Shown here: positions 11,929 through 57,987 of the stretch, piece by piece
Layout: each line of letters starts with the position of its first letter
Numbering within the stretch: the stretch's first letter is position 1
NCBI RefSeq assembly: GCF_000009365.1
Contig: NC_008260.1
Location: forward strand, 903,501 to 967,500
Direction: 5' to 3'
From: Alcanivorax borkumensis SK2
GTDB taxonomy: Bacteria; Pseudomonadota; Gammaproteobacteria; Pseudomonadales; Alcanivoracaceae
Length of the DNA stretch: 64,000 bases
Notes under the pieces: generated by a model
What the model saw: the letters and a program-made list of their open reading frames with translations, nothing else
Database searches by the model: none
Told to the model about the DNA's origin: nothing
Program-made: the position numbers and the translations under genes

Positions 11929-11944
11929 CAGTTAGCGTGGCTCC

Positions 11945-14133: not shown

Positions 14134-14221
14134 GCTCGATGGTCCCCCCCAACGTGTTGATTATTATGCTTTGTCAGTATCACGGTTGCCCGCATGGCGT
14201 GCAACCGTTAGCGAGTGAGCA

Positions 14222-41390: not shown

Positions 41391-41391
41391 G

Positions 41392-41464
41392 TGCTAACAA
41401 GTGCATGCCAGTTGGACTGGCTTTCCGCTGCGCTCCAAATCAGCCACAAATGCGGGCGTTAGCT
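41392..41464 (+). repeat. attC site 2
   Basis: 73 bases from TGCTAAC to GTTAGCT, with the outer arms exactly complementary over GCTAAC / GTTAGC and inner imperfect pairing. Follows the second cassette stop by 1 base. Confidence 0.88.
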
Positions 41465-41480
41465 TCTTTCGAGGGATTTC

Positions 41481-42296: not shown

Positions 42297-42360
42297 CTAG
42301 TGGATGTTGCCGGACGTTCCTACGCTGCGCTCCGGCACGCCGCAAAGCCAGGCGTTAAAT
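42291..42360 (+). repeat. attC site 3
   Basis: 70 bases from AGCTAAC to GTTAAAT; arms GCCGGACG.. / ..GCAAAGCCAGGC flank a palindromic middle around TCCTACGCTGCGCTCCGG. Last attC of the array. Confidence 0.85.
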
Positions 42361-42664
42361 AAGCGCAGGAAGAAATTGAAATCGAGTTATTGGGCTATAC
42401 GGATGAGTTACTGCAGGTCGATAACCCGCAAAGCCCCCGAAGTCACGATATCTAGCTTCGCTATCTGAGCTGAGGGCTATAGCGCATTTTCTATTGGCTT
42501 TTGCCGACGAGATTGAAATCGAAGGGAACCAATTTGGACACGAGCATTTCGAATTCGGTCCCAGGATAACCCAGTGTTGGTTGTTTTAAGTCCTGATACC
42601 GCGTGGGGAGCACCGCTAACAGCTGAAAGCCACCTTTTCTGTCAGTGCGTTCCTGCGCCAAACC
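42361..42664. other. Truncated segment after the last attC
   Basis: About 300 bases with no start-to-stop gene. The first 31 codons (…EEIEIELLGYTDELLQVD…) read open straight from the attC edge and then stop, so this may be the rest of a further cassette or its junction with the chromosome. No further attC is seen. Confidence 0.45.
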
Positions 42665-43819
42665 CTAAAACCGTTCCTTTCCCAGTGGCATCAACAGCAC
42701 CGCTGCGCCTATCAACGCCACTGCTGCGCCGATCAACCCGGGCGAAAAACTCCCTCTGCTTTCCAGTAACCATGCCGTGACTACTGGCCCCAGTATCTGC
42801 CCGACCCCATAGCAGGCGGTTAATGCGCCTAGGGCGGCGCTGGCGGCGTGGGGGGCCAGTTGGCGGGCGCAGTACATGCTTAGGGCGACCACGGCGGTAA
42901 AGGTGCCGCCTACCAGCAGGCCACTGGTGACCAGCCCGGCCAGACCGGGGAGCCAGGCGGGAGCACTCACGCCTACGGCCTGCACTACCAGCGCCATCAT
43001 CAAGGCATTGCGCTCGCTTGTGTGGCTGGCCAGTTTGCCCCACAGCAGGTTGGCGGGAACGGCAGCCAGGCCCACGGCAAGCCAAGTATAGAAGGCGGCG
43101 CTGTCCAGCCCAGGCAGTTGTTGTTTGGCGATCACCGGCAGGTAGGTGGTGCTGGTGATGTAGCCGAACCCGGCGAGAGAATAACTGGCAATAAGGAAGC
43201 CCAGAGCTTTGCGGTTTACCGGTACCCGGGTATGGGCATGTTCACTGGCGTGGGGCAGGGCGGGAATCACACGCAGAAACGCCATGAAGACAAGTGCCAG
43301 CGCGCCGCAGGAAAACCACATAAAGGGATAGCGGCCTTGCAGGAACTCAACCAATGCTACGGTGAGGGCGGCGATGCTGATGCCCAAGCCAATGCCGGCG
43401 TAATGGATATTGCCTAACCGGGCGCGCAGGTGATTGGGCAAGGCGCCAAGCACCAGGGCAGAGCCGTTGACCATGATGATGGCGCTGGCGATGCCGGCCA
43501 AGAAGCGGTTGATTGCCCAAGGAAGAAACGTCTCGCTGAGACCCATCAATAGGCTGCTAACCACACTCACCCACAGTGCGACCCAGAAGGCGCTACGTGC
43601 CCGGTGAGAGGGGACGGCCATGGCAAGCATGGCACCCAGCAGGTAACCGCCGTAGTTCACCGCCGCTAGATAGCCGCCACTCACCGCCGTTAGCGCTGTG
43701 TCAGCAATCATGCCGGGCAGGGCAGGGGTAAAGAGAAAGCGGCCAATGCCCAGGGCAATGACCAAACTGAGGGCGCCGGCCAGGGCAATGCGCAGGGCGT
43801 CGTTGTCGTGTTGGGCCAT
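42665..43819 (-). CDS. YbfB/YjiJ-type MFS transporter
   Basis: 384 residues with about 12 spans; N-terminus LVIALGIGRFLFTPALPGM (about 19-37) is the YbfB/YjiJ signature, and LWGKLASHTSERNALM lies in the loop between helices 8 and 9. Substrate unknown. It is divergent from the nitrate operon and 519 bases away. Confidence 0.85.
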   Translation of the reverse strand: MAQHDNDALRIALAGALSLVIALGIGRFLFTPALPGMIADTALTAVSGGYLAAVNYGGYLLGAMLAMAVPSHRARSAFWVALWVSVVSSLLMGLSETFLPWAINRFLAGIASAIIMVNGSALVLGALPNHLRARLGNIHYAGIGLGISIAALTVALVEFLQGRYPFMWFSCGALALVFMAFLRVIPALPHASEHAHTRVPVNRKALGFLIASYSLAGFGYITSTTYLPVIAKQQLPGLDSAAFYTWLAVGLAAVPANLLWGKLASHTSERNALMMALVVQAVGVSAPAWLPGLAGLVTSGLLVGGTFTAVVALSMYCARQLAPHAASAALGALTACYGVGQILGPVVTAWLLESRGSFSPGLIGAAVALIGAAVLLMPLGKERF

Positions 43820-43968
43820 AAGGGCTCGGTCTAAATTAATGATGGATGGCTGCGGTCATGTGCCGGGCAGCCTAGCAGGTCGGCGCTTGTTGCTCTGCAC
43901 CTTTCAGATGATGTTCATTATTTCTCTCAGTGATAATGGGCCTTTGGTCGCAAGCGGTGCGCATTTTT

Positions 43969-43985
43969 TTCACCATACTGGCGCA
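43969..43985 (+). promoter_or_regulatory. NtrC-like enhancer site
   Basis: TTCACC-ATACT-GGCGCA fits the NtrC consensus TGCACC-N5-GGTGCA at 10 of 12 positions with exact spacing, about 185 bases upstream of the sigma-54 promoter, the usual range for NtrC. Confidence 0.55.
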
Positions 43986-44152
43986 AAAGCGGGTTTTGTG
44001 GGGGGTGATCGGCTATGCAGCACAACAGTGATGCATTTTGGTGAGAACGAAATGATTCACAATAGTGCTGTTTGTGCAATTTATGGGCGTGGCCATCGTT
44101 TCTGTAGACAGCATTAATCGTTAAGTTATTGAAAGTATTGTGTTTTCAAAGT

Positions 44153-44167
44153 TGGCACAGCAATTGC
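44153..44167 (+). promoter_or_regulatory. Sigma-54 promoter of the nitrate operon
   Basis: TGGCAC-AGCAA-TTGC is an exact match to the -24/-12 consensus TGGCAC-N5-TTGC with GG and GC 10 bases apart. Transcription should start near 44179, leaving a 160-base leader before nasF. Confidence 0.85.
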
Positions 44168-44180
44168 CTTAGTGGGTACA

Positions 44181-44302
44181 TCACAGCAACAGTGTTGTGA
44201 CCCAAATACTTCTTCGTGATCAATGGCGATCACGATCAGATTCGAGCAAAGGCGCTCATGGCATCCGGTCAACGATGACAGGATTCTCTGAGCGCTTTTT
44301 TT
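44181..44302 (+). promoter_or_regulatory. Nitrate-responsive leader RNA: tandem hairpins and attenuator terminator (ANTAR target)
   Basis: Hairpin P1 (44181-44200): stem TCACAGC / GTTGTGA, loop AACAGT. Hairpin P2 (44215-44234): perfect stem CGTGATC / GATCACG, six-base loop AATGGC with the A1 and G4 that ANTAR proteins recognise; P1 has A1 but A at position 4. Then a terminator: GCGCTCA (44252) / TGAGCGC (44289) with an inner ATCC / GGAT pair, followed by seven T (44296-44302). The layout matches NasR/NasT antitermination leaders; nasT and nasS are encoded at the end of this cluster. Confidence 0.82.
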
Positions 44303-44338
44303 ATGCCAGCGCGATAGCAGGCAAATGAGGGAAGACGG

Positions 44339-45700
44339 ATGAAAAAGTTTATTCGCATAGCAATTACTGCACTGACGGTGGGGCTCTCGGCCAACGCCAT
44401 GGCGGAAGATTCTGTGGGCTGGCCGGAAAAGGCTGATCTGAAGTTTGGCTTCATCAAGCTGACCGACATGGCGCCGCTCGCTGTGGCCTACGAGAAAGGG
44501 TTTTTTGAAGAAGAAGGTTTGTTTGTGACCTTAGAGGCCCAGGCCAACTGGAAAGTCCTGCTAGACCGGGTGATTGACGGTCAGCTGGATGGGGCGCACA
44601 TGCTGGCAGGCCAGCCGCTGGGGGCGACTATTGGCTACGGCACCGAAGCGCACATTGTTACGGCGTTTAGCATGGACTTAAACGGTAATGGCATCACCGT
44701 TTCCAATGCGGTGTGGGAGGAAATGAAGAAGAGCATCCCGGTGGAGAATGGCAAACCGGTGCATCCGATCAAGGCGGATGCACTCAAGCCGGTGGTGGAA
44801 AAGTACAAAGCTGAGGGCAAGTCTTTCAACATGGGCATGGTGTTCCCGGTATCCACTCACAACTACGAGCTGCGTTACTGGCTGGCCGCCGGTGGCCTCA
44901 ACCCGGGTTTCTACGCCCCACACAAGGGCGACACCAGTGGCCAGCTGCAGGCTGACGTATTGCTGTCGGTTACCCCGCCACCACAAATGCCGGCCACCTT
45001 GGAAGCGGGCACCATTTACGGTTACTGCGTGGGTGAGCCTTGGAATCAGCAAGCTGTATTCAAAGGTATCGGTGTGCCGGTAATTACTGATTACGAAATC
45101 TGGAAGAACAACCCGGAAAAAGTGTTCGGTGTGAGTAAGGGTTGGGCAGACAAGTATCCCAACACCCATATCCGTGTAGTGAAAGCGATGATTCGTGCGG
45201 CCAAGTGGCTGGATGAGAACGACAATGCCAACCGCCCGGAAGCAGTGAAGATCCTGTCTCAGCCTAACTATGTGGGGGCGGATTATGACGTGATCGCCAA
45301 CTCAATGACCGGGACCTTTGAATATGAGAAAGGTGATAAGCGTGAAGTGCCGGACTTCAATGTGTTCTTCCGCTACAACGCTACCTATCCATTCTACTCC
45401 GATGCCATCTGGTACCTGACGCAGATGCGTCGCTGGGGCCAAATCAGCGAATCCAAACCGGATAGCTGGTACATGGATATCGCCAAGCAAGTGTATCGCC
45501 CGGACATCTATGCCCAGGCGGCTAAGGCGCTGATTGCTGAAGGCAAGATCTCTGCGGATGAGTTTCCTGACTTCGCCACCGAAGACGGCTTTAAAGCACC
45601 GCAAAAAGGCTTTATCGACAACATCACTTACGACGGCCGCAAACCTAATGCGTACCTGAAGAAGTTTCCGATTGGTCTGAAAGAGGGCGACGCGCTTTAA
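44339..45700 (+). CDS. nasF: Nitrate ABC transporter substrate-binding protein
   Basis: 453 residues with a Sec signal peptide cleaved near AMA-ED (residues 21-22). Shows the NrtA/NasF pattern [44 protein letters not shown] and [12 protein letters not shown], all nitrate-pocket regions. Periplasmic receptor for nitrate (possibly nitrite). First gene after the sigma-54 promoter and attenuator. It is homologous to the cytoplasmic sensor NasS encoded at 54.4 kb, a typical pairing. Confidence 0.93.
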
Positions 45701-45729
45701 CAGCGTGTCTCCTTCAAGGAGAAGCAATC

Positions 45730-46731
45730 ATGGTGACCCTGACTTTCCCAACTTGGATGGAACCCTACCGTGCGCTGGCTACCGGCAAGATGTCCGGTGA
45801 GCAGTGGCAGGCGTTGCTGCGCCAGTTGATCTGGCCGGTGATGGGCATTGCCGCCTTTCTGTTGCTCTGGCAGCTGGCGGCCCAACGTATCGACACGTCG
45901 TTGGGGCAATTCCCGGGGCCAGCGGATGTTTGGCAGCAGGCAGGGTCTCTGGTGGATGAACATCAGGCGTCCCGAGCGAAGGAAGAGGCGTTTCACGAAC
46001 GCCAGGAAAAATACATTGCTTCGCGTCTGCAGCAGCAGCCGGACTGGGAGCCGGTCCAACGGAATTACACGGGGGCGCCGACCTTCTTTGATCAGATTGG
46101 CACCAGCTTGATCACGGTGATGAGTGGCTTCTTGCTGGCATCATTGATTGCGATTCCTCTCGGTATCGTCATTGGTTTGAGCAGCACTGCGTATGCGGCT
46201 ATGAATCCGCTGATTCAGTTGTTCAAACCGGTGTCACCGTTGGCATGGTTGCCCCTGGTCACCATGGTGGTGAGCGCGTTGTATGTGACCGACGACCCGA
46301 TGGTGGCTAAGTCGTTCCTGACGTCCATGTTCACAGTGTCTCTATGTTGTCTGTGGCCAACGCTGATGAACACCTCCGTGGGGGTGACGTCTGTGAGCCA
46401 GGATCTGACCAACGTCTCTTTGGTGCTGCGGCTGAATGCGCTGAGCCATATACGCAAGATTGTACTGCCTTCTGCACTGCCAATGATGTTCACCGGTTTG
46501 CGCCTGAGCTTGGGGATCGCCTGGATGGTGCTGATCGCTGCCGAGATGCTGGCGCAGAATCCGGGGCTGGGGAAATTTGTTTGGGATGAATTTCAGAACG
46601 GTAGTTCTCAATCTCTCGGCCGAATTATGGTTGCCGTTATCGTAATTGGTCTGATCGGTTTTCTGCTGGATCGCTTAATGCTCATGCTGCAACGCGCTCT
46701 GGTGTGGGACAAATCTTCCGTACAGCGCTAA
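45730..46731 (+). CDS. nasE: Nitrate ABC transporter permease
   Basis: 333 residues. One N-terminal span, an extended hydrophilic loop (about 75-115), then the permease core with about six spans and an EAA-type loop (LRLNALSHIRKIVLPSALPMMFTGLRLSLGIAW, motif about 233-265). NrtB/NasE-type. Transports nitrate with NasF and NasD. GGAG upstream of the ATG. Confidence 0.93.
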   Translation: MVTLTFPTWMEPYRALATGKMSGEQWQALLRQLIWPVMGIAAFLLLWQLAAQRIDTSLGQFPGPADVWQQAGSLVDEHQASRAKEEAFHERQEKYIASRLQQQPDWEPVQRNYTGAPTFFDQIGTSLITVMSGFLLASLIAIPLGIVIGLSSTAYAAMNPLIQLFKPVSPLAWLPLVTMVVSALYVTDDPMVAKSFLTSMFTVSLCCLWPTLMNTSVGVTSVSQDLTNVSLVLRLNALSHIRKIVLPSALPMMFTGLRLSLGIAWMVLIAAEMLAQNPGLGKFVWDEFQNGSSQSLGRIMVAVIVIGLIGFLLDRLMLMLQRALVWDKSSVQR

Positions 46732-46747
46732 GCACAGGGAAAACGAC

Positions 46748-47587
46748 ATGAAAGCATTACTGGAACTCTCCAACGTTGGTATGAAATTCGATACGCCCAA
46801 GGGCCAGTTCGAAGCCCTGAAAGAGGTGAACCTTAAAATTGATTCCGGCGAATTTGTTTCTCTGATTGGTCACTCCGGATGTGGTAAATCCACCGTGCTC
46901 AACATCGTCGCGGGCCTGCTACAGGCCACCGATGGCGGTGTCATTCTCGACAACCATGAGGTGACCGAGCCAGGCCCGGAACGGGCCGTAGTATTCCAGA
47001 ACCATTCGCTGCTGCCCTGGCTCACCTCGTTCGAAAATGTCGAGCTGGCGGTCAAGCAGGTCTTCAAAAAGACCAAGACCAAAGCGGAAATACGCGACTG
47101 GGTAGAGCACAACTTGGAACTGGTGCACATGGGGCACGCCCTGCACAAAAAGCCAGACGAAATTTCCGGGGGTATGAAACAGCGGGTGGGTATTGCCCGT
47201 GCGTTGGCCATGCAGCCCCAGGTGCTGCTCATGGATGAACCCTTTGGTGCGCTTGATGCACTGACCCGTGCTCACCTGCAGGATTCCCTGATGGAAATCC
47301 ATGCTCAGCTGGGCACCACGGTGATCATGATTACCCACGATGTGGATGAGGCGGTACTGCTGTCCGATCGTATCGTCATGATGACCAATGGCCCGTCTGC
47401 CACCATTGGCGAAATTTTGGACGTGAACGTACCGCGGCCACGAGATCGCCTGGCACTGGCAGATGACCCGACCTTTGTGCGCTGTCGTCAACAGGTGCTT
47501 CAGTTCCTGTACGAAAAGCAGCGCAAGGTGGAGCCAATGCGAAAACGCAATAGCAATAACGCTGAGGCGGCTCGCAAACAGGCTTGA
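46748..47587 (+). CDS. nasD: Nitrate ABC transporter ATPase
   Basis: 279 residues. Walker A GHSGCGKST (about 38-46), Q-loop VVFQNHSLLPW, signature SGGMKQRVGIARAL (about 139-152), Walker B VLLMDEPFGALD and the switch His in MITHDVDEA. NrtD/NasD-type without the regulatory nitrate-binding extension of NrtC. Closes the transporter unit; 120 bases separate it from the porin. Confidence 0.94.
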   Translation: MKALLELSNVGMKFDTPKGQFEALKEVNLKIDSGEFVSLIGHSGCGKSTVLNIVAGLLQATDGGVILDNHEVTEPGPERAVVFQNHSLLPWLTSFENVELAVKQVFKKTKTKAEIRDWVEHNLELVHMGHALHKKPDEISGGMKQRVGIARALAMQPQVLLMDEPFGALDALTRAHLQDSLMEIHAQLGTTVIMITHDVDEAVLLSDRIVMMTNGPSATIGEILDVNVPRPRDRLALADDPTFVRCRQQVLQFLYEKQRKVEPMRKRNSNNAEAARKQA

Positions 47588-47707
47588 AGTAAACGCATAA
47601 CGATGGAATGAACCCACCTGCTTTTTTGTGCACGGAAAGCGGGAACAGGGAAGGTGCGCTCTGAATTAACCAAAAAACGATTTTAACTTTGGGAAGGTGT
47701 TGAGGAA

Positions 47708-48892
47708 ATGATGATGAAAAATGCTGCCATTGCTGCCGGTGTCCTGCTCTCCGCGCTGGGTGTTACAGGTACCGCTAACGCCGAAGATGATGCCTTTATT
47801 ACGGCTCTCAAAGGCGGTACTCCGCTGCTGAACATGCGCCTGCGCTACGAAGAAGTCGACATTGACGGTATGGCTGACGAAGGTCAGGCACTCACCCTGC
47901 GTACCCGTTTGGGCTACCAGAGTGGCAAATTTTACGGCTTCGACGTAATGGGCGAATTTGAAGATACCCGCATCGTTGGCCAGGTGGATAATTATGCCCC
48001 GGAGCAAGGTGGCTATCCGATCATTGCGGATCCGGAAGTGACTGAACTGAACCGCGCTGCCATTCGCTACACTGGTAGCGATGCGTTGGAAGGCCTGGTT
48101 GCTACCTATGGCCGTCAACGCATCATTTATGACAATGCGCGCTTTGTGGGCAATGTGGGCTGGCGCCAGGATGAGCAAACCTTCGACGGTGCCAAGCTAG
48201 ACTATGGTGTCGGTGATCTGACGTTCTCCACGGCGTACCTGACTCAAGTAAATGGCATTACCCCATCGTTTGATGCCAATACCTCCCATTATCTGTTCAA
48301 CGCTAGCTGGGCCGGCGCGCCAGGTGGGTCTCTAAGCGCCTATGGCTATCTGCTTGAAACAGACAATGTGACGGATTCCGATAACGATACTTTCGGCCTG
48401 CGTTATGCCGGTGCTTTTGATCTGGACTCACTCAAATTGTTGCTGACTCTGGAAGGGGCCCAGCAGGAAGTGGACGCCGGTGATACCGAGTACTACTTTG
48501 CCGAATTGGGCGCACAAATTGCTGGCGTGACAGTAAAAGTGGCACAGGAAGTGCTTGGTTCTGATGATGGCACCGTAGCGTTCCAGACGCCTCTGGCCAC
48601 CAAGCATGCCTTTAATGGCTGGTCGGATCAGTTCTTGGCGACACCGGATGATGGTCTGGAAGATACCTTTGTGTCAGTGGGTGGCAAGCTGGCGGGTTTC
48701 AAGTTGCTGGCGGTATTCCATGACTTCAAGTCCAACGAAGGCAGCACTGACTACGGTACAGAAACCAATGTGCTGGTAGCGCGCCCAATCGGTAAAAACT
48801 ACGTAGTAGGACTGAAGTATGCAGACTACAGCGCCGATGACTTCAAGTCTGATACCCGCAAGTACTGGGCCTGGGCAGAACTGAAATTCTGA
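47708..48892 (+). CDS. Outer membrane porin of the nitrate cluster
   Basis: 394 residues. Signal peptide ending TANA-ED (about 24-26), then alternating beta-strand sequence to a terminal aromatic residue (WAWAELKF), the mark of an outer membrane beta-barrel. The opening LLNMRLRYEEVDIDG resembles alginate-export-type porins. Position between the transporter and the redox genes suggests it lets nitrate or nitrite cross the outer membrane; this is an inference. Confidence 0.8.
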   Translation: MMMKNAAIAAGVLLSALGVTGTANAEDDAFITALKGGTPLLNMRLRYEEVDIDGMADEGQALTLRTRLGYQSGKFYGFDVMGEFEDTRIVGQVDNYAPEQGGYPIIADPEVTELNRAAIRYTGSDALEGLVATYGRQRIIYDNARFVGNVGWRQDEQTFDGAKLDYGVGDLTFSTAYLTQVNGITPSFDANTSHYLFNASWAGAPGGSLSAYGYLLETDNVTDSDNDTFGLRYAGAFDLDSLKLLLTLEGAQQEVDAGDTEYYFAELGAQIAGVTVKVAQEVLGSDDGTVAFQTPLATKHAFNGWSDQFLATPDDGLEDTFVSVGGKLAGFKLLAVFHDFKSNEGSTDYGTETNVLVARPIGKNYVVGLKYADYSADDFKSDTRKYWAWAELKF

Positions 48893-48935
48893 TCCCCGAC
48901 CTTCCCCGTTAGATCCTCAGAAAAGGAGGTGTCAG

Positions 48936-50915
48936 GTGGAAGCAAAACGTTATCAGCCCCAACCCCGGGTACCTGATGCCCAGGCCGAACAGCCCGTCAT
49001 CATTGTTGGCAATGGCCCGGCGGGAATACAGTGCCTGGTGGAGTTGCGCCGCCGTGGTGTGACCACACCAGTGAAGCTGTTCGGTGCAGAGCATTGGGCC
49101 CCGTATGATCGCGTCAAGCTTTCCACCTTTCTTTTCGGATCCACCGACTTTGATGATCTCACCAACTTGCCCCCTGAACTGGATGACTCGGTAGAGCATC
49201 TGGTTGGGCGGCCTGTTACCGGGATTAATCCCGGCCGTCGCTGGGTAGAGGACAGACTCGGTCAGCGTCACCACTACAGTAGCCTGGTTCTGGCGCTGGG
49301 CAGTGACGCCCATATTCCTTCCATACCGGGCACAACCTTGTCTGGTGTGTTGCGTTTTCGCGATATGGCCGACGCCCAAGCGTTAATCGCCCGTCGCTTG
49401 CGAAGTACCCATACCGTTGTCATTGGCGGCGGTCTTCTCGGTATTGAAGCTGCCCACGGATTGTGTCGTTTCGGCACCAACGTCACCTTGATTCAGCATG
49501 CCGATCGGTTGATGAATCGCCAGCTTGATAGTGAAGCGGCCAGCATGGTGGCCAATAACCTGCGCGAAGCCGGTGTGGATATACGGCTCAATACCAGTGT
49601 CCGGCGTATTAAGGGAACGGAACGTGTGGAGTCAGTGGTGCTTGCGGATGGCAGTGAGCTGCCTTGCGACACGGTGGTCTTCGCAACGGGAATTGCCCCG
49701 CGGACAGCACTGGCCCGCAAGGCGGGGCTCAAGGTTGCTAATGGTATTCGTGTCACTGCGAGCATGCAGACCTCAGATCCGCATATTTATGCGGTGGGCG
49801 AGTGCGCCCAGTTTGAAGATCGGGTATGCGGCCTAGTGATGCCGGCACTGCAACAGGCCCGGGTCGCTGCGGGATGCCTTGCCGGCAGTGATGACAGTTA
49901 TACACCGGTGGCTGATAGCACTTGGCTAAAAGTTTTGTCGTTGGAGGTATTCAGTGCCGGGCGCTTTACTGACGAAGAGCGGGGCATGGTGCATCGCAGT
50001 CTTGTTTACCACGATAGCAATGCTGGCATTTATCGTGCCTTGATGTTGCGCGCCGGGCGGTTGGTGGGCGTGGTTTCCGTGGGCTCTTGGGCGGAACGTC
50101 AGAAAGTGCTCAATCGCATCGCCGATGGTCGTCGCATACAGCCTTGGGAAGTATTGCGTTTCCGCTTCACTGGTGAGCTGAATGAAGGGGGCGCCGGGCA
50201 AGTGAGCGAATGGCCGGCCGCCACCGTGATCTGTCAGTGCCGGGGGCTGTCCCGTCGCCAACTACAGGATTTCATGGCCGACGGCTGTGACGTGGCCACC
50301 CTGAAATCTGTGAGCGGCGCCGGCACGGTATGTGGTGGCTGTGAGCCGCTGCTGGATAGTTTGTGCAGTGGTGGTGCAGCTGCCGCCCGTAAGGTGCCTG
50401 GGGCCACCGCGCTAGCCATTATCTCAGCCGTTGCCGCGTTTGTTATGGCATTGGCCTTCTGGTTGCCGTCACCGGCTCCGGCCAGCTCGGTACAGAATAT
50501 TTCTCTGTTTGAACAATTTTCCCGCAACGGCTTGTGGCGACAGTGGAGCGGCTATGCCGTGTTGGCCGTTTCTGTGCTGCTGTTGCTGATGTCCTTGAAA
50601 AAACGTTTTCCGAAAGTGCCCATGGGGAGTTTTACGGGGTGGCGCATTGCCCATGCAGTACTGGCTTTGCTTGCTTTGTTAGCACTGTATTGGCACACCG
50701 GTTTTTCATTGGGGGAAAACCTAAACCGCTGGCTGATGTTGAGTTTTATCGGTGCCGCCATGGTTGGCATTACTGCGGCGCTGCTAACCCGTCTGCAGGT
50801 TGCCATGAACGGAGTGGGGTGGCTGCGACAAGGCAGCACTTGGCTGCACATTCTGGTGTGCTGGCCGCTGCCGACGCTACTGATCTTTCACATCGTTTCG
50901 GCGTACTACTTCTAA
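48936..50915 (+). CDS. NirB-like flavoprotein fused to a BFD-type [2Fe-2S] domain and a five-helix heme-b-type membrane domain
   Basis: 659 residues from a GTG with AGGAGGTG upstream. Residues 19-400 are a NirB/rubredoxin-reductase type FAD/NAD(P)H module: FAD motif IIVGNGPAGIQ (22-32), NAD(P)H motif VVIGGGLLGIEAA (161-173), second FAD motif HIYAVGEC (283-290). Residues 430-475 are a BFD-like [2Fe-2S] domain with Cys433, Cys435, Cys466, Cys469. Instead of the sulfite/nitrite-reductase half of NirB it continues with five membrane helices (about 490-510, 538-553, 570-588, 599-618, 636-656). The third has His573 and His587 and the fifth His638 and His652, both H-X13-H, as in ferric-reductase-type heme b proteins. 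Likely carries electrons from NAD(P)H across the membrane. Followed after 12 bases by the multiheme cytochrome. Confidence 0.85.
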   Translation: MEAKRYQPQPRVPDAQAEQPVIIVGNGPAGIQCLVELRRRGVTTPVKLFGAEHWAPYDRVKLSTFLFGSTDFDDLTNLPPELDDSVEHLVGRPVTGINPGRRWVEDRLGQRHHYSSLVLALGSDAHIPSIPGTTLSGVLRFRDMADAQALIARRLRSTHTVVIGGGLLGIEAAHGLCRFGTNVTLIQHADRLMNRQLDSEAASMVANNLREAGVDIRLNTSVRRIKGTERVESVVLADGSELPCDTVVFATGIAPRTALARKAGLKVANGIRVTASMQTSDPHIYAVGECAQFEDRVCGLVMPALQQARVAAGCLAGSDDSYTPVADSTWLKVLSLEVFSAGRFTDEERGMVHRSLVYHDSNAGIYRALMLRAGRLVGVVSVGSWAERQKVLNRIADGRRIQPWEVLRFRFTGELNEGGAGQVSEWPAATVICQCRGLSRRQLQDFMADGCDVATLKSVSGAGTVCGGCEPLLDSLCSGGAAAARKVPGATALAIISAVAAFVMALAFWLPSPAPASSVQNISLFEQFSRNGLWRQWSGYAVLAVSVLLLLMSLKKRFPKVPMGSFTGWRIAHAVLALLALLALYWHTGFSLGENLNRWLMLSFIGAAMVGITAALLTRLQVAMNGVGWLRQGSTWLHILVCWPLPTLLIFHIVSAYYF

Positions 50916-50927
50916 AGGGCGGGTGCG

Positions 50928-52268
50928 GTGATGGGCAGTAAGAAACATCCTTCGGCGTTGTGGGCTATCTGGCTGTTTGGTTCGGTCGGCTTGGCCATTT
51001 GGTTGAGTCTTCAATTAGTGGATGAAGACGCAGCAAAGACCGCTTTTATCCCTGGCCCAATGACCCACGGCCATCACCAGATCGAGATGCAATGCAGTGT
51101 TTGTCATGGCCCTGGCTTCGACAGCGAAACCGTATTGCAAAATGCCTGTATTGATTGTCATGGGGAGCAATTGGAAGACGCCCAAGATTCTCATCCCAAA
51201 TCCAAATTTACTGACCCTCGTAATGCCGACCGGCTGGCCAATGTGGATGCCCGGCTTTGCGTGTCCTGCCATGTGGAGCATCGTCCCGAACTTGACGTCG
51301 GCTTGGGGGTGACTCTGCCCATGGACATGTGCGGCCACTGTCATGAAGGCATTGCCGAAGATCGGCCGAGTCATGAGGGAATGGGTTTCGATACTTGTGC
51401 GAATGCGGGTTGTCATAATTTCCACGATAACCGCGCGTTGTATGAAGACTTTCTGCTTGCCCATTCCGATGAGCCTTGGCTGAAGCCGCCTGCCCGGCAA
51501 CCGCCCCGTAACCTGCTTGCCAGACAGATGAAAGATGACGCTCTGCTGGCGTTGATGCGCGGCCAGGGCAAAGCGCCTGAAGGCACGCCAACCCCTGAGC
51601 ACTGGGAGGGGACGGCCCATGCACAAGCGGGCGTCACCTGCACCGCTTGCCATGGTGCTGCCGGTGAGTGGGTCGATTCACCGGAGATGCTGCAGTGCGC
51701 CACCTGCCATAAGCCGGAGTCAGAAGGGTTTCTGCAGGGCCGGCATGGCATGCGCTTGGCCCAAGGGCTGGCGCCGATGACGCCGTCGCAGTCTGTGCTC
51801 AACATGCATGTGGAGGCCAGTCATCGCGAGCTGACGTGTATCAGCTGTCACGGCGCCCATGACTTTGATACCCAGAGTGCTGCCGTGGATAGCTGTATTG
51901 GCTGCCACAATGACGAGCACAGCAACGAATACCTGCGTTCCCCTCATCATGACCTGTGGAAAAAGGAAAAGCGCGGCGAGTTGCCGCCCGGTAGCGGTGT
52001 CACCTGTGCCTCCTGCCACATGCCCCGTGAAGAGCATCGCGACGACATTTTTGTCCAGCACAACCAGAGCCTGACCATGCGCCCGGTGGAAAAGATGGTG
52101 CGTCCGGTATGCCTGCAATGCCATAGCTTGGCGTTTTCACTGGATGCCTTAGCCGATCCGCATCTGCTGGAAAACAACTTCAACGGCAAGCCCGAACACC
52201 ATGTACCGTCCATCGATATGGCGGTGGACCGTGACGAGGCCCGCGACAAAAAAATAGGGCCTTACTGA
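50928..52268 (+). CDS. Membrane-anchored undecaheme cytochrome c
   Basis: 446 residues (GTG at 50928; ATG at 50931 also possible). One uncleaved N-terminal anchor (about 10-30), the rest periplasmic. Ten CxxCH sites begin at residues 56, 74, 111, 135, 238, 257, 304, 323, 360 and 395, and one CX4CH begins at 157, as in cytochrome c3. The C-terminal third (CHNDEHSNEYLRSPHHDLW … CASCHMPREEH) resembles the octaheme hydroxylamine-oxidoreductase/ONR group, but no CxxCK active site is seen. Probable electron acceptor of the flavoprotein-heme b protein upstream, or a reductase of nitrogen oxides. Needs the Ccm system, part of which is in this window. Confidence 0.88.
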   Translation: MMGSKKHPSALWAIWLFGSVGLAIWLSLQLVDEDAAKTAFIPGPMTHGHHQIEMQCSVCHGPGFDSETVLQNACIDCHGEQLEDAQDSHPKSKFTDPRNADRLANVDARLCVSCHVEHRPELDVGLGVTLPMDMCGHCHEGIAEDRPSHEGMGFDTCANAGCHNFHDNRALYEDFLLAHSDEPWLKPPARQPPRNLLARQMKDDALLALMRGQGKAPEGTPTPEHWEGTAHAQAGVTCTACHGAAGEWVDSPEMLQCATCHKPESEGFLQGRHGMRLAQGLAPMTPSQSVLNMHVEASHRELTCISCHGAHDFDTQSAAVDSCIGCHNDEHSNEYLRSPHHDLWKKEKRGELPPGSGVTCASCHMPREEHRDDIFVQHNQSLTMRPVEKMVRPVCLQCHSLAFSLDALADPHLLENNFNGKPEHHVPSIDMAVDRDEARDKKIGPY

Positions 52269-52310
52269 TTTACGCATAACGAAGTTTAAAAACCTGAGGA
52301 GGTATTACCC

Positions 52311-52907
52311 ATGCGACACGTCATGAAACGCAAAGCCACCACCCTGATGGCCACGGCCATTTCCGCCCTGATACTCAGTGGCTGTGGAGGTGAACAAGCC
52401 GCAACGCCTGTCAGCGGGATTGAACCCAAGGTCTACACCGATTCCCTGTTCGCAGTGATGAACGCAGACCGAACCAACTACACCAAGCTGATCATCGGGC
52501 GTCTTGGTCCGGCAGGGGCGGATAGCATCAAACCCCATGAGTACTGGGAAGACCTTGAAAATGGCGCACCACTGCCAGCACAGATGTTTCGCTACGGGGC
52601 GGAGTCGGTGAGTGAGATGACCAGTGAATTCAGCTACTCGTTGCAGTCACTGTGGCCGATCAATGGGCAAAACGAACCGAAGACCGGCCTGGAGAAAGAG
52701 GGCTTGCAGTACATCGTGGATAACCCTGGTGAAAATTTTTACGGTGAAGAAAAACTGGGTGATGTGACCTACTACACCGCCGTTTATCCAGATGTGGCTG
52801 TGGCCGCGCCGTGTGTGGCTTGCCACAACAACCATAAGGATTCTCCGAAAACCGATTTCGAACTGGGCGATGTGATGGGCGGCGTGGTGATTAGGGTGCC
52901 GATGTAG
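52311..52907 (+). CDS. Heme-c lipoprotein with Tll0287-like (DUF3365) domain
   Basis: 198 residues. Lipobox L-S-G-C at about 22-25 shows a lipoprotein. The body fits the Tll0287-like domain (SLQSLWPINGQNEP, PGENFYGEEKLGDVTYYTAVYPDVA), ending with a single heme site CVACH at 168-172 and a C-terminal GDVMGGVVIRVPM. Such domains sense redox or gases in other proteins; here a lone heme lipoprotein may take electrons from the multiheme cytochrome. GAGGAGG lies before the ATG. Confidence 0.8.
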   Translation: MRHVMKRKATTLMATAISALILSGCGGEQAATPVSGIEPKVYTDSLFAVMNADRTNYTKLIIGRLGPAGADSIKPHEYWEDLENGAPLPAQMFRYGAESVSEMTSEFSYSLQSLWPINGQNEPKTGLEKEGLQYIVDNPGENFYGEEKLGDVTYYTAVYPDVAVAAPCVACHNNHKDSPKTDFELGDVMGGVVIRVPM

Positions 52908-53013
52908 GCGCTCTAAAGTTCGATCAACAACGACCCAAGTACGGGCTTAACCGATTATAGCGTCGGATGGGCGGCGCTAAAGGCCATTATCTATATTCAA
53001 CGGGAGAAACATC

Positions 53014-53421
53014 ATGACTCCGGTACAGATTGCTTTGGTACAGAACAGCTGGGACAAGGTGGATGCTATTTCCGATCAGGCTGCGAGCTTGTTTTACGAT
53101 CGCCTGTTTACCAATGACCCCGCCCTGAAACCGCTCTTCAAGGGCAACATGGAAGAACAGGGCAAGAAGCTGATGACCATGATTGGTGTGGCAGTGAGAG
53201 GCTTGGACAAGCTCGATACCATCGTCCCCGCTGTTCAGAAGCTGGGCGCTCGTCACAAGGATTATGGTGTGAAACCAGCAGACTACGACACGGTGGCACA
53301 GGCCTTGCTTTGGACTTTGGGCCAGGGGCTGGGCGATGCGTTCGACAGCGACACAGAAGCCGCCTGGGTTGCCGCCTACACCATTTTGGCCACGACCATG
53401 ATTGCCGCCGCGGACTATTAA
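53014..53421 (+). CDS. VHb-like single-domain globin
   Basis: 135 residues. Key heme-pocket residues match Vitreoscilla hemoglobin and flavohemoglobin globin domains: Tyr28 (B10), Gln49 (E7) and His81 (F8, in LGARHKDYGV). This pocket binds O2 tightly and is competent for NO dioxygenation given a reductase. There is no flavin domain, so a separate reductase is needed; the flavoprotein at 48.9 kb is a possible donor. Placed in a nitrate cluster it may remove NO made from nitrite. GGGAG precedes the ATG. Confidence 0.9.
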   Translation: MTPVQIALVQNSWDKVDAISDQAASLFYDRLFTNDPALKPLFKGNMEEQGKKLMTMIGVAVRGLDKLDTIVPAVQKLGARHKDYGVKPADYDTVAQALLWTLGQGLGDAFDSDTEAAWVAAYTILATTMIAAADY

Positions 53422-53440
53422 GGCGCCTAGAGGGATAAGG

Positions 53441-53482
53441 GCCATTTTGGCACCTGGATTTGCACCACAATGGCTCGCTTTT
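53441..53482 (+). terminator. Possible terminator between globin and nasT
   Basis: GCCATTTTGG pairs with CCACAATGGC (9 of 10) around a 14-base loop, followed by CGCTTTT. Confidence 0.5.
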
Positions 53483-53539
53483 GGGGTGCCTTATTCATGG
53501 AAAATAAAATAGACCATAAAACAATGGGTTAGAAAGAGT

Positions 53540-54190
53540 ATGACTGGCACAACCGTTGCAGAACACTTCAATAATTCCATTTGTTCGGATGCGCCAGACA
53601 TTATGGCTCTGACAATTATGCTGGTAGATGACCAGCCCCCCCGCGCGGCGATCCTCGAGCGGGCCCTCATTGATGAGGGCCACAAGATTCTGTGCCGGCT
53701 CACCAGCGCTGCCGGCCTTGCCGAGAAAGTGCGCTCCAGTAACCCGGATGTGGTGATTGTGGACATGGATGCGCCGGACCGCGATACCCTGGAAAGCATG
53801 GCGTTGGTGCAGCGTGACATGCCACGCCCCATGGTCATGTTTTGCCATCAGGACGATGAGGATCTGGTGGTTGCCGCATTGCGCGCGGGTGTTAGCGCCT
53901 ACGTGGCCGGCGAAACAGACCTGACCCGGGTGCGTGGGGTAATGCGTGTGGCGACCGCGCGTTTTCGGGAATATCAGGCGTTACGTGAAGAGCTGGAAGA
54001 AACCCGTGAAGCGTTGGCCGAACGCAAAATTATCGAGCGGGCTAAAGGGCTGCTGATGCAGCGTCGTCGGCTTAACGAACAGGATGCCTACAGCACCCTG
54101 CGTCGCCAGGCCATGAACAGCGGGCAACCGTTGATTCAGGTGGCCCGATCGGTGCTCGATTATGCCGAAATGCTCAAGGCGCAAGGGTAG
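53540..54190 (+). CDS. nasT: ANTAR antiterminator response regulator NasT
   Basis: 216 residues. Receiver-like domain (LTIMLVDDQPPRAAILERAL; VVIVDMDAPDRD holds the Asp) followed by a coiled helix and the ANTAR RNA-binding domain (about 150-212) with ERKIIERAKGLLMQRRRLNEQDAYSTLRRQAM. Binds tandem hairpins in leader RNA to prevent termination; the leader at 44181-44302 is the evident target. ATG at 53540 is chosen for its AGAAAGAG; ATG at 53603 is an alternative. Confidence 0.92.
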   Translation: MTGTTVAEHFNNSICSDAPDIMALTIMLVDDQPPRAAILERALIDEGHKILCRLTSAAGLAEKVRSSNPDVVIVDMDAPDRDTLESMALVQRDMPRPMVMFCHQDDEDLVVAALRAGVSAYVAGETDLTRVRGVMRVATARFREYQALREELEETREALAERKIIERAKGLLMQRRRLNEQDAYSTLRRQAMNSGQPLIQVARSVLDYAEMLKAQG

Positions 54191-54238
54191 AAAGACTAGC
54201 GCTTAATGCCCAAAGGATAATGTTGAACAGGAGATAGC

Positions 54239-54391
54239 ATGCGACGAGTGATGCCCTTGATGAAGGCGCGAAGCCTTATGGATATGTCGGATAAGACCGT
54301 GAGCCGCGCCCCTATTGTCGACGGCCTTCGGAGTGTGCGCCGCCAGGCGTCTGAGGTCCGGCGCCCTTCGTGTACGGAGCCGCCCCGATGA
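54239..54391 (+). CDS. Small 50-residue protein coupled to nasS
   Basis: 50 codons from an ATG with GGAG five bases upstream, ending in a TGA that overlaps the nasS ATG (ATGA). The peptide is basic and Arg-rich, with many Met at its start (MRRVMPLMKARSLMDMSDK) and no known family. It may be a real small protein, or a leader peptide that couples nasS translation. It fills the nasT-nasS gap exactly. Confidence 0.5.
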   Translation: MRRVMPLMKARSLMDMSDKTVSRAPIVDGLRSVRRQASEVRRPSCTEPPR

Positions 54392-55548
54392 AAGTGCGTA
54401 TTGGCTACATGCCGCTCACCGATAGCTTGCCCCTTGCGGTGGCTCAGGAGGGGGGATTCTTTGCCGCCGAAGGGCTGGATGTGGAATTGCAGCCGGAGTG
54501 GAGCTGGGCCAGTCTGCGGGACCGTCTGTTGGTGGGGCAACTGGATGCGGCACCCCTGTTGGCGCCCATGCTGTTGTCCACGTCACTGGGGCTGGGGTGC
54601 ATCAAGAAGCCCCTGGCCACCGCCTTTTCCATGGGCCTTAACGGCAATGGAGTGACTGTATCGCCGATGTTGTTTCAGGGCTTGTGCGCCTTGTCGGAAG
54701 GTCCGACACCTAACGATATTGCTGCCGCCATGAACAAGCTGGTGGCGGCTCGGGCTTCCAGCGGTGAATCCCCTCTGGTGTTGGCCGTGGTGTTTCCTTT
54801 TTCCTGCCATGCCTATCAGTTGCGTCATTGGTTAAGTGTTGCGGGGTTGGATCCGGATCACGACGTTAAGCTGGTGGTGCTGCCCCCTTCGCAGATGGTG
54901 GACCACCTGCGAATGGGCCACATTGATGGCTTTTGTGTTGGCGAACCGTGGAATAGCTTGGCCGCCCTGACGGGTGCCGGGCATTGTATTTTGTCGGGTT
55001 ATCAAATTTGGGAGAACGCGCCGGAGAAGGTATTGGCGGTCTCCAGGGACTGGGTGTCACGACATCCGGACACTCACCGGGCGGTGCTGCGGGCGCTGTA
55101 TAAAGCGGCCTGCCATGCGGATGAAAACTTGGTTGAAAGTCTGTCCTTGCTGGCGCATCCGGCGTGGCTGGATGTGCCAGCAGAAATCATCGCTGCGCCG
55201 TTCAGCCAACGGTTGCCCGGTGGGCTGACAGGGCAACCGTTCCTGCCACATCATTTCCATGTATTTGCCGGTTTTCACGCTAACTTTCCTTGGCGCTCGG
55301 ATGCGGCTTTTCTGCTCCAGGAAATGCAGCGTTGGCGGCAATGCTCTCTGGAGGAGGCGAAAACTTTTGCGGCCCAGTGCTATCGCACTGACTTGTTCCG
55401 CGATGCCATGAGCGACCTTACCAGCCTGCCGATCATGGACAGCAAACCGGATGAACGCCATGGTGGCCATTGGCAGTTGCCCGGTGAGCCTAAGCCGGTA
55501 GAGCTAGGGCCCGATCGGCTGCTGGGCGCCCTTGATCTAAAGGCTTAG
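54388..55548 (+). CDS. nasS: Nitrate/nitrite sensor protein NasS
   Basis: 386 residues from the ATG at 54388. Similar to the NasF receptor (IGYMPLTDSLPLAVAQEGGFF, FSMGLNGNGVTVS, GFCVGEPWN) but without a signal peptide, so cytoplasmic: the NasS type. In the absence of nitrate NasS holds NasT; nitrate releases it and NasT binds the leader RNA. Its start overlaps the preceding 50-codon ORF by four bases. Confidence 0.92.
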   Translation: MKVRIGYMPLTDSLPLAVAQEGGFFAAEGLDVELQPEWSWASLRDRLLVGQLDAAPLLAPMLLSTSLGLGCIKKPLATAFSMGLNGNGVTVSPMLFQGLCALSEGPTPNDIAAAMNKLVAARASSGESPLVLAVVFPFSCHAYQLRHWLSVAGLDPDHDVKLVVLPPSQMVDHLRMGHIDGFCVGEPWNSLAALTGAGHCILSGYQIWENAPEKVLAVSRDWVSRHPDTHRAVLRALYKAACHADENLVESLSLLAHPAWLDVPAEIIAAPFSQRLPGGLTGQPFLPHHFHVFAGFHANFPWRSDAAFLLQEMQRWRQCSLEEAKTFAAQCYRTDLFRDAMSDLTSLPIMDSKPDERHGGHWQLPGEPKPVELGPDRLLGALDLKA

Positions 55549-55578
55549 CAGGATTGGTGATGACGGTGCGGGGAGGGG

Positions 55579-55618
55579 CTTGCCTGCACGTGGTTCAAAA
55601 GAACCCGTTGCAGGCAAG
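55579..55618. terminator. Long hairpin between convergent nasS and metE
   Basis: CTTGCCTGCA / TGCAGGCAAG outer stem and GGTTC / GAACC inner stem around AAAA. Only three T follow, so it may act by stability. Confidence 0.55.
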
Positions 55619-55695
55619 TTTCGACATTTCAGGAGCAGGTCAGCGTTAGCCTGAAAGGCGTAACCGGACAGGCCAGCGCTGAACGACAGGAAAGG

Positions 55696-57987
55696 CTAGC
55701 TCGCCTGCCGCAACTGTTTCGCCGCATTGACCATGTTTGCCAAGGCTGCTCGGGTTTCGTCCCACTTGCGGGTTTTCAAGCCGCAGTCCGGGTTTACCCA
55801 TAACCGTTCTTTAGGCAAGCGTTCGGCCGCTTTTTCCATTAGCTGTACCATCCAGGCCACGTCTGGCTCGTTGGGCGAGTGAATATCGTAAACGCCGGGG
55901 CCAATGTCATTGGGGTAGTGGAAATCTCGGAAGGCATCCAGCAGCTCCATGTTGGAGCGGGAGGTTTCGATGGTAATCACATCCGCATCCAGCGCCGCGA
56001 TAGCTTCGATGATGTCGTTGAATTCCGAGTAACACATGTGGGTGTGAATCTGGGTGTCGTCATCCACGCTGACAGTGGCCAGGCGGAAACAATCCACCGC
56101 CCAGTCCAGATATTGCGTCCACTCTTCTTGGCGTAGCGGTAAGCCTTCGCGCAGAGCGGGTTCGTCAATCTGGATAACCTTGATGCCGGCCTTTTCCAGA
56201 TCCTGTACTTCATCACGTAATGCTAAGGCAATCTGGCGGCAGGTGTCCGCACGGGGCTGGTCATCGCGCACGAACGACCACTGCAAAATGGTGACCGGCC
56301 CGGTGAGCATGCCTTTTACCGGCTTGTGGGTAAGAGACTGGGCGTAACGGGCCCACTCCACGGTCATGGCCTGGGGGCGCTGCACATCGCCGAAAATGAT
56401 GGGGGGTTTTACGCAGCGTGAGCCATAGCTCTGCACCCAACCGAAGCGAGTAAAGGCGAAACCGTCCAGCAGTTCACCGAAGTATTCCACCATGTCATTA
56501 CGTTCGGCTTCACCATGCACCAGCACATCCAGCTCCACCTCTTCCTGGTAGCGAATGCAGCGAGCAATCTCTTCCTGCATTTGTTGCTGGTATTGCGCAT
56601 CGTTTAGCTTGCCGGCTTTCCAGTCCCGGCGAGCGGTACGGATTTCTCGAGTCTGCGGGAAAGAGCCGATAGTGGTGGTGGGGAAAGCGGGCAACTGCAG
56701 GGCGTGTTGCTGCTGCGCAATGCGTTCGGCAAACGGGCTCACCCGGTCGCGGGAGAGCTGGCTGGCATCCGCTAGGCGCTGGGCCACGGCAGGATTATGA
56801 ATCCGCGAAGATAGACCGCGAGCCTGGAGGGCAGCGCGCTGTGTTTGCAGCCCGCTATTAACGTTGCTGTTGCCACGCAGGGCACCGCCAAGCAGTGCCA
56901 GTTCTTCCAGTTTCTGTTTGGCAAAGCTCAGCCAGCTTTTCAGTTCGTTATCGAGGGTGTCTTCCTGCTCCAGATCCACCGGGCAGTGCAACAAAGAGCA
57001 GGACGGCGCCAGCCAGAGCCGATCCCCCAGTTCATTGTGCAGGGCGGTGATGTTATCCAGAGCCGCGTCTAGATCGGTGCGCCAGATGTTGCGGCCGTTG
57101 ATTACACCCAACGACAGCACCTTATCACCCAGACGGGGGATCACTTGGCCCAGGTCGTCATTACCACGAACCCGGTCCAGATGCAGGCCGTGCACGGGCA
57201 GTTCCAGTGCGGTGAACAGGTTGTTACCGAGCCCGCCAAAGTAGGTGGCCAGTAACAGTTTAGTCTGGCTGGCCGAGGCCAATTGGTCGTATACGCGCAG
57301 GTAGGCTCGTTGCCAGCTATCGGGTAAATCCAGAACCAGAATAGGCTCGTCGATTTGCACCCATTGAACGCCTTGGTTTGCGAAGCGTTGCAATATTTCG
57401 CGGTAAACCGGAATCAGGTTATCCAGCAACGCGAGCTTGGCACTGTCTTCGGCGCCTTCAAAGCGGTCCCCCTTACTCAGGTACAGATAAGTAAGCGGGC
57501 CGGGGATCACCGGCTTGGGGTTGTGGCCCTGCGCTTTGGCCTCTTCGACCTGCTCGAACAGGCTTTCCCGGGCAATACGGAAGGTTTGGTCGGCGGCTAG
57601 CTCCGGCACCAGGTAGTGGTAGTTGGTATCAAACCACTTGGTCATTTCGCAGGCCGCTGCCGGGGTGCCGGTGGGCGCACGTCCACGGGCCATACGGAAT
57701 AAGGTGTCCAGGTTCACTGGGGCATTTGCATCTTGCTCGAAGCGTGATGGCACGACACCCAGCAGAGAGGAGAACTCCAAAATATGATCATACCAAGCGA
57801 AATCGCCCACCGGCATCAAGTCTACTCCGGCGTCGGCCTGTAAGGCCCAGTGGCGTTCACGGAGGCTTTTGCCCACGTGTTCCAATTCGCTCTGTTGCAG
57901 GTCGCCGGCCCAGTAAGCTTCCTGTGCCTGTTTCAGTTCGCGGCGGGCGCCGATGCGCGGAAAGCCCAAGTTGTGCAGGGTGGTCAT
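55696..57987 (-). CDS. metE: Cobalamin-independent methionine synthase
   Basis: 763 residues from the ATG at 57987, where [19 protein letters not shown] matches the family; AAGGAA lies upstream. The zinc-binding catalytic half has HTHMCYSEF (His and Cys ligands) and NPDCGLKTR (Cys ligand), and DEPALREG for the substrate. Transfers the methyl group of 5-methyltetrahydropteroyl-triglutamate to homocysteine in the cytoplasm. Divergent from metR, its usual activator. Confidence 0.97.

Follow-up and report, generated by a model that had tools for sequence, protein, structure and literature searches.

A four-gene cassette in the nitrate operon of Alcanivorax borkumensis SK2 joins a NirB-type flavoprotein with a predicted heme b membrane domain and an 11-heme cytochrome c

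In the NOX layout, the flavoprotein is C-terminal and of FNR type. For the inner-membrane proteins of PCC3 and PCC4, a pair of hemes b and a transfer of electrons across the membrane have already been put forward (He et al. 2017, PMC5566968); the same authors also mention further pairs of multiheme cytochromes and inner-membrane proteins near redox proteins (PMC5566968). In Bradyrhizobium japonicum, the flavoprotein Flp and the single-domain globin Bjgb are required for nitric oxide (NO) resistance under NasST control (PMC4724949), and for sCache_heme domains in fusion with signalling modules, NO-sensor properties were reported from one protein tested (PMC12889525). Here we describe a locus of Alcanivorax borkumensis SK2 that can be compared with these systems. 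It lies in a stretch of 64,000 nucleotides, hereafter the window, which corresponds to positions 903501-967500 of the single contig of this genome (3,120,143 bases); positions below are those of the window. An earlier reading of the letters, the original prediction, had noticed here a flavoprotein fused to a membrane domain, followed by a multiheme cytochrome and a heme lipoprotein. Our analysis confirms and widens this observation, and the electron path drawn from it is plausible and, judged from the sequences, well conserved.

The three genes are located on the plus strand at 48936-50915 (659 residues), 50928-52268 (446 residues) and 52311-52907 (198 residues), with gaps of 12 and 42 bases, and their coordinates, strand and architecture were upheld by open reading frames, Pfam matches and motif counts. 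According to domain matches and conservation, the first encodes a fusion of a NirB-type flavin adenine dinucleotide (FAD)/NAD(P)H part, a BFD [2Fe-2S] domain and a five-helix membrane domain. The second encodes a cytochrome c with eleven heme motifs and a hydrophobic stretch that would anchor it in the inner membrane, and the third a Tll0287-like (sCache_heme) monoheme lipoprotein. While the set of three genes stood, a fourth one had been overlooked: the single-domain haemoglobin at 53014-53421 on the plus strand, identified by PF00042 and by co-occurrence within the genus. The cassette is thus composed of four genes (48936-53421), with the globin as the last one, and the gene order in the window is nrtABC, porin, fusion, 11-heme cytochrome, Tll lipoprotein, globin, nasT and nasS.

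The arrangement is not confined to this strain. Sixty-four loci (L numbers) were collected, namely 60 hits with flanks and four named loci; L140-L143 proved to be other cytochrome clusters with weak matches, so that 60 remain. Hits in genomes G313, G597, G577, G532, G592, G668, G522 and G467, and the weak hits in G053, G258, G200, G386, G231 and G290, are without flanks, and L009 (4.4 kb) was excluded from neighbour counts. Alcanivorax species are among the named relatives, at 80-87% identity. Fusion, cytochrome and Tll gene occurred together in 57 of the 60 loci, forming a near-obligate trio. Of the other three, L096 has a short cytochrome frame with four motifs, L119 a split one and L109 none. 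In all 57 trios, the first heme motif starts 146-212 bases past the frame of the membrane domain on the same strand. A Tll frame with CxxCH is also present on that strand in every case, at most 345 bases from the cytochrome in 56 of them; in L094 it is part of a long frame whose start could not be placed. When genomes were sampled by rank, the membrane-domain profile was found in 35 of 369 genomes of the class at E 1e-5, of which 27 reached E 1e-20 or better, and in 39 of 390 genomes of the order (37 at 1e-20). When a phylum sample was searched with the cytochrome, 3 of 398 genomes matched at E 1e-60, and one of these is outside the class (L173, whose cytochrome has eleven canonical CxxCH). 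The class, order and phylum searches scored at most nine, nine and four candidates per genome, respectively, so some carriers may have been missed. Among the tblastn matches listed for plasmid records, the best were of NirB type, and none of the records contained 80% of the query at a single place.

Within the fusion protein, residues 21-308 match Pyr_redox_2 and residues 431-474 (50226-50357, plus strand) match Fer2_BFD at E 3e-5 with 24.7 bits, slightly below the Pfam cut-off of 26. The NirB model is covered at positions 1-465 of 794 only (349.7 bits against a cut-off of 578), which means that the protein is like NirB in its N-terminal FAD/NAD(P)H and BFD parts but lacks the siroheme half. 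The remaining part of about 175 residues, containing the membrane domain (50403-50909, plus strand), matched no Pfam family at E 10. Only two HX13H motifs are present in this domain, His573 (50652)/His587 (50694) and His638 (50847)/His652 (50889). These four His and the four BFD Cys (433, 435, 466 and 469) were invariant in all 54 full-length fusion rows (53 loci, including L109 with its FNR-type front end, and the window). Across all membrane domains the four His were kept in 61 of 61. This goes beyond chance, and the variability that would have spoken against the original prediction was not seen. Hydropathy peaks at residues 500, 546, 579, 608 and 647 suggest five helices, with which a low-confidence AlphaFold model (mean predicted local distance difference test score, pLDDT, 46) is compatible. 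The loops 555-571 and 619-636 are strongly positive (mean K+R of 5.35 and 3.81 versus D+E of 0.48 and 0.74), while loops 511-536 and 589-600 carry no strong positive charge. Following the positive-inside rule, the flavoprotein, His573 and His638 would therefore be cytoplasmic and His587 and His652 periplasmic, and the two pairs of His on either side are predicted ligands of two hemes b.

As to its kinship, the membrane domain shows homology to PCC3/PCC4-motif proteins. With hmmsearch, E values between 3e-8 and 6e-15 were obtained among open reading frames of nine loci, a search in which the short loci of G053 and G258 were used. A profile comparison by hhalign gave a probability of 96.6%, as opposed to 0.5% for an NrtB permease control. 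In both cases, the comparison set was chosen through the published motifs (L052, L053), for L141-L143 with the help of adjacent multiheme genes as well, and did not consist of the sequences of He et al. themselves. Like the PCC3/PCC4 proteins as described (PMC5566968), the domain has five predicted helices with HX13H on helices 3 and 5, and its gene is located beside multiheme cytochromes. Unlike them, it is fused to a NirB-type NAD(P)H/FAD/BFD module, lacks SGXXG on helix 4 and is not accompanied by a cassette porin, and its cassette contains a specific 11-heme cytochrome, an sCache_heme lipoprotein and a globin. SGXXG was absent from the window sequence and from L109, and present in L052, L053 and L141-L143. 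The Trp of the WX3H motif on helix 3 (W569) is kept in 53 of 54 rows, and on helix 5 a Trp at -4 from the motif His was found in just 11 of 54. The profile also retrieved inner-membrane proteins with WX3HX13H and SGXXG, some of them adjoining very large multiheme cytochromes. As proteins with two HX13H motifs have already been published (PMC5566968), the membrane part as such is not new. In the clusters L141, L142 and L143, large multiheme cytochromes (43 and 21 motifs in two genes of L141) are accompanied by inner-membrane proteins that bear the PCC3/PCC4 motifs and are distantly related to the domain. L140 encodes a stand-alone 197-residue membrane protein with two HX13H motifs (offsets 9493-10084, minus strand) in a stretch that also contains a 229-residue five-motif cytochrome, a shorter version of the pairing.

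The original prediction had compared the His pairs of the membrane domain with those of ferric reductases and NOX. Its HX13H pairs are indeed located on two helices, as in PF01794 proteins, and the NAD(P)H-FAD front end is likewise part of the same chain, from which electrons would move outward. However, PF01794 did not match the membrane domain of the window at E 10 and had no match at E 0.001 in the whole genome, so that membership in this family was rejected in favour of kinship with the PCC3/PCC4-motif proteins. The cassette protein further differs from NOX in that its flavoprotein is N-terminal, of NirB/rubredoxin-reductase type and has a [2Fe-2S] step. While nearly all loci have a NirB-type front end, there are two departures. 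In L109 (7333-9921), the membrane domain shares one chain with cyclic-nucleotide-binding (cNMP), BFD and FNR-type FAD/NAD(P)H domains, an independent fusion; the 11-heme cytochrome was not found in the stretch fetched for this locus. In L107 (8486-9736), L134 (9005-10174, minus strand), L135 (8474-9652) and L136 (8538-9713), the flavoprotein is replaced by GPP34 (Golgi phosphoprotein 3), assigned by Pfam except for L136, which was assigned through 53% identity to L135. These forms still adjoin the 11-heme cytochrome and the Tll frame.

The cytochrome (50928-52268, plus strand) carries ten CxxCH and one CX4CH (residues 157-163), as had been noticed originally, and no CxxCK. Neither the 22 heme Cys nor the His of the motifs varied in 58 of 58 cytochromes, so that each of the 11 motifs ends in His. 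The CX4CH looks like a genuine heme site, because its Cys, Cys and His are kept in all 58 rows and because in L134 (7511-8989) it is replaced by a canonical CxxCH, for a total of eleven. Eleven further His outside the motifs are conserved (ten in 58/58, one in 57/58), which would suffice for one distal ligand per heme, and a hydrophobic anchor precedes the first heme in 55 of 57 cytochromes. NrfA and octaheme nitrite reductases matched the protein in short heme-motif patches alone (best E 1.6e-9), and it is therefore read as an electron wire, in which an open heme may nonetheless exist.

The Tll protein (52311-52907, plus strand) matches PF11845 at E 5e-18, with 66.3 bits against a cut-off of 24.1, and has a CxxCH and the lipobox LSGC. 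It resembles Tll0287 of the sCache_heme family (PMC12889525) in being a stand-alone PF11845 domain with CXXCH. In contrast to stand-alone Tll0287 as characterised there, it lacks the conserved axial Cys: across 57 rows, no conserved Cys was found outside the CXXCH and the lipobox, while CXXCH itself, Met92, His175 and Met189 were conserved in all 57. A lipobox was recognised in 41 of 56 proteins, none of which has Asp at +2; the other 15 have none.

Presence and absence of the cassette could be followed within the genus. Among 17 genomes, the fusion was present in 10; the globin accompanied it in 10 of 10 (with a split globin frame in G003) and was found in none of the seven genomes without the fusion. 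Six of these seven nevertheless kept nrtA. Four of the six were inspected (L168-L171), and in all of them porin and nasT are neighbours without the cassette between them; L168 has only a 91-residue frame in a gap of 0.5 kb. From this, it can be inferred that the four cassette genes travel together, as a dispensable unit inside the nitrate operon, and that the nitrate genes manage without them. In L172, from a sister genus, neither cassette nor porin was found.

Partners that bind oxygen or NO were counted on the same strand within 6.5 kb and named by Pfam. The 57 loci contained 30 single-domain globins, 8 truncated globins and 6 hemerythrins, i.e. 44 in total and never two kinds together. The hemerythrin-like gene is located just 5' of the fusion in L104, L108, L128, L129, L130 and L131 (by Pfam in L104, in the others by hits to the L104 protein), and no globin was found there. 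A small monoheme cytochrome c gene follows downstream in 27 of 57 loci (the one tested was of cbb3 type by Pfam), though not in the window, and an Alginate_exp porin is present in 14 of 57. Ten neighbours from seven loci without a nitrate gene were examined for a common theme and none emerged: they were two RapA, glycine dehydrogenase, a TonB receptor, MCP, a tRNA synthetase, a FadL-type porin, an M48 peptidase, XdhC and an amidohydrolase. In uniting a flavoprotein with a single-domain haemoglobin under NasST-controlled nitrate assimilation, the cassette is like the narK-bjgb-flp-nasC unit of B. japonicum; as described, however, that unit has no membrane heme domain or multiheme cytochrome, and its flavoprotein also serves NasC (PMC4724949).

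In the window, the cassette is embedded in genes of nitrate uptake and sensing, all on the plus strand. Upstream are nrtA (44339-45700), nrtB (45730-46731) and nrtC (46748-47587), encoding a nitrate ABC transporter (NMT1_2, BPD_transp_1 and ABC_tran; NtrCD at 346.9 bits, above cut-off), and an outer-membrane porin of the Alginate_exp family (47708-48892, by Pfam). The porin is a partner of the nrt operon and not of the cassette, as it is kept in the cassette-free L168-L171. Downstream are nasT (53540-54190), a response regulator with an ANTAR RNA-binding domain by Pfam, and a gene of the NMT1_2 family (54370-55548) which, from its position beside nasT, probably encodes the nitrate/nitrite sensor NasS. 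The nrtA leader contains a hairpin with the hexaloop AAUGGC (44214-44235), of the type used in antitermination by NasT and recovered in hexaloop scans. It is followed by an intrinsic terminator (44252-44302; GCGCTCA...TGAGCGC, then a T run) that is paired in the computed fold. Together, hairpin and terminator support a leader of NasT type, and NasS-NasT function itself has been described (PMC3795266). Hairpins with an AAYGGY hexaloop were present in 13 of 17 nrtA leaders, as opposed to a mean of 0.085 (maximum 1) in Markov controls. Directly before the fusion gene, they were found in 4 of 32 loci without an immediate nrt or porin gene upstream (controls: mean 0.135, maximum 1). In three of these four, a T run comes after what by eye resembles an inverted repeat; one of them is L103, a locus without a nitrate gene in its stretch. 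Nitrate control, assumed originally, is thus supported by the nrtA leader and, in a few loci, by the leader of the fusion gene itself.

Nitrate genes were found near 24 of the 57 loci, and NasA in 18 of 27 class genomes with the membrane domain versus 99 of 342 without it (Fisher p 1.3e-4, uncorrected for ancestry and incomplete genomes). Since nine carriers have no NasA, the nitrate link is a tendency and not a rule. The absence of NasA and NirBD, which the original prediction had noted, is true of the locus but not of the genome, in which narK, nirB, nirD, a NasB-like flavoprotein gene and a NasA-type molybdoenzyme gene are located at about 1.2276-1.2363 Mb. The first three exceed curated cut-offs. 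The molybdoenzyme scores below them (406 bits to NasC, cut-off 1100; 432 bits to Fdh-alpha, cut-off 666), and we call it NasA provisionally from its position, its C-terminal BFD stretch and these sub-threshold matches. The gene was present in 17 of 17 genomes of the genus, with the cassette or without it. In L014, a 447-residue NirB-like flavoprotein gene (11281-12624) stands beside nirBD, as does a NasA-type gene (12621-15305) whose end stretch, residues 841-892, matches the BFD part of NirB. A role of the locus as substitute for absent nitrite reduction, towards which the original prediction had pointed, is dropped as the leading view, because nirBD and a NasA-type gene exist elsewhere, the latter in all 17 relatives; the lack of CxxCK in the cytochrome weakens it further.

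We propose, with about even confidence, that the cassette is an inner-membrane NAD(P)H:periplasmic multiheme-cytochrome oxidoreductase, switched on by nitrate or nitrite and directed most likely against NO or nitrosative by-products. Antitermination by NasS-NasT would turn on the cassette when nitrate or nitrite appears. Electrons of NAD(P)H would then enter the FAD of the NirB-type domain, cross the [2Fe-2S] cluster of the BFD domain and continue over an inner (His573/His638) and then an outer (His587/His652) heme b. From there they would reach the membrane-anchored 11-heme cytochrome and finally small periplasmic heme proteins, i.e. the Tll0287-type lipoprotein and, in loci that encode it, the monoheme cytochrome c. 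The globin, or the truncated globin or hemerythrin of other loci, might handle NO or oxygen in the cytoplasm while the wire brings reductant to the periplasm. Gene order, domains, invariant ligands, the behaviour of the cassette and the leader signals can be read directly from the DNA, whereas heme b binding, direction of flow and membrane topology are predicted. The path as originally drawn, from NAD(P)H through FAD, [2Fe-2S] and heme b to heme c, fits the domain order, the invariant His, the predicted topology, the pairing with the cytochrome and the independent fusion in L109. A role towards NO or oxygen is preferred because three unrelated families binding these gases replace one another beside the cassette, and a function in nitrosative stress is thus plausible.

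Several observations weigh against this proposal. With regard to the electron path, GPP34 stands in place of the flavoprotein in four loci, and NAD(P)H is therefore not the sole possible electron source; carriers in the class sample also include G329, with a front end of FNR type. AlphaFold gave mean pLDDT values of only 46 for the membrane-domain protein and 36 for the cytochrome, from alignments of six and five rows, and thus offers no structural support. With regard to NO, 13 of 57 loci have neither globin nor hemerythrin, some of them at contig ends. Hemerythrins are located upstream of the fusion and globins downstream (upstream in L094), so that there is no single fixed slot. Truncated globins come with their own FNR-type reductase in five of eight loci, and the globin therefore need not use the flavoprotein of the cassette. 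The one stand-alone Tll0287-type protein tested, which is Cys/His-ligated, binds NO poorly (PMC12889525). Flavohaemoglobin was considered as a substitute for the cassette and rejected, as Hmp exceeded its cut-off in 5 of the 10 genomes with the cassette and in 3 of the 7 without it, which is no anti-correlation. With regard to control, 33 of 57 loci had no nitrate gene in the fetched stretch, some stretches stopping at contig ends; together with the carriers lacking a NasA match (9 of 27), this partly realises an outcome that the original prediction had named as adverse, namely occurrence regardless of nitrate genes. No hairpin precedes the fusion in 28 of 32 loci, and Rfam matched no RNA family in 41000-56500. 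ANTAR proteins follow an A1/G4 hexaloop rule and their targets usually have two hexaloops; a strict pattern gave one in the nrtA leader of the window.

In an extended version of our proposal, a patchily inherited, NAD(P)H-driven exporter would respond to nitrate or nitrite, and its sCache_heme lipoprotein would be the periplasmic site at which NO or another nitrogen oxide is reduced; the globin, truncated globin or hemerythrin beside it would remove NO from the cytoplasm. This would provide a two-compartment defence served by one flavoprotein; stated this specifically, it appears unlikely. The same electron path could act as a redox valve, through which electrons of NAD(P)H reach the cytochrome c pool of the periplasm and then cytochrome c oxidase, past the quinone pool; it would balance the redox state during nitrate use, with no nitrogen oxide as substrate. 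The monoheme cytochrome c of 27 of 57 loci would be the natural carrier to the oxidase, but the cassette of the window has none, and the globin, truncated globin or hemerythrin of 44 of 57 loci would be left unexplained, for which reasons we consider a valve unlikely. As many extra His as hemes are also present in NrfA, and some NrfA use CxxCH, so neither the His count nor the lack of CxxCK decides whether the 11-heme cytochrome, or else the lipoprotein, could by itself reduce nitrite, as originally proposed, or NO in the periplasm. The control of nitrate type and the local NrfA/octaheme matches (best E 1.6e-9) would suit such an enzyme. Nevertheless, the 11 motifs all end in His and none in Lys, the matches are confined to heme-motif patches, and NirBD and the NasA-type enzyme are encoded elsewhere, the latter in all 17 genomes of the genus, whether they have the cassette or not; a reductase in this place is therefore quite unlikely.

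Homology of the membrane domain to PCC3/PCC4-motif proteins brings to mind electron export to the outer membrane or the outside, for example in ferric reduction. Outer-membrane lipoproteins do not have Asp at +2, nor do the Tll proteins in which a lipobox was recognised (41 of 56). Yet 15 of 56 show no lipobox, and the cassette has no porin of its own, since the Alginate_exp porin, which 14 of 57 loci contain, remains beside nrtABC where the cassette is missing; export of this kind we judge to be improbable. A reversed flow, in which a donor in the periplasm would supply electrons to the quinone pool or to NAD(P)+, has its precedent in what is thought for PCC3/PCC4 of iron oxidizers (PMC5566968) and would suit the GPP34-fused forms, which have no NAD(P)H module. 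It seems very improbable in view of two different FAD/BFD front ends, both from families of NAD(P)H oxidoreductases, and no recognised donor gene in the cassette.

For the combination of the fusion with the 11-heme cytochrome, no publication was found among the matches listed, although the supplementary pair table of He et al. may already hold part of it. If our proposal of an NAD(P)H:multiheme-cytochrome oxidoreductase is correct, it would lead electrons straight from NAD(P)H in the cytoplasm to hemes in the periplasm by a route that need not involve the quinone pool, and globins without a known reductant would be linked to a defined electron path. The breadth of this potential route is indicated by the membrane domain in 27 of 369 sampled genomes of the class. 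As related species either have or lack the whole cassette at the same position of this nitrate operon, its role should be cleanly testable. Finally, split or shortened frames were observed for fusion and cytochrome in L119, for the cytochrome in L096 and for the globin of G003 (C1:1282404-1282806), reflecting either decay or sequencing error.

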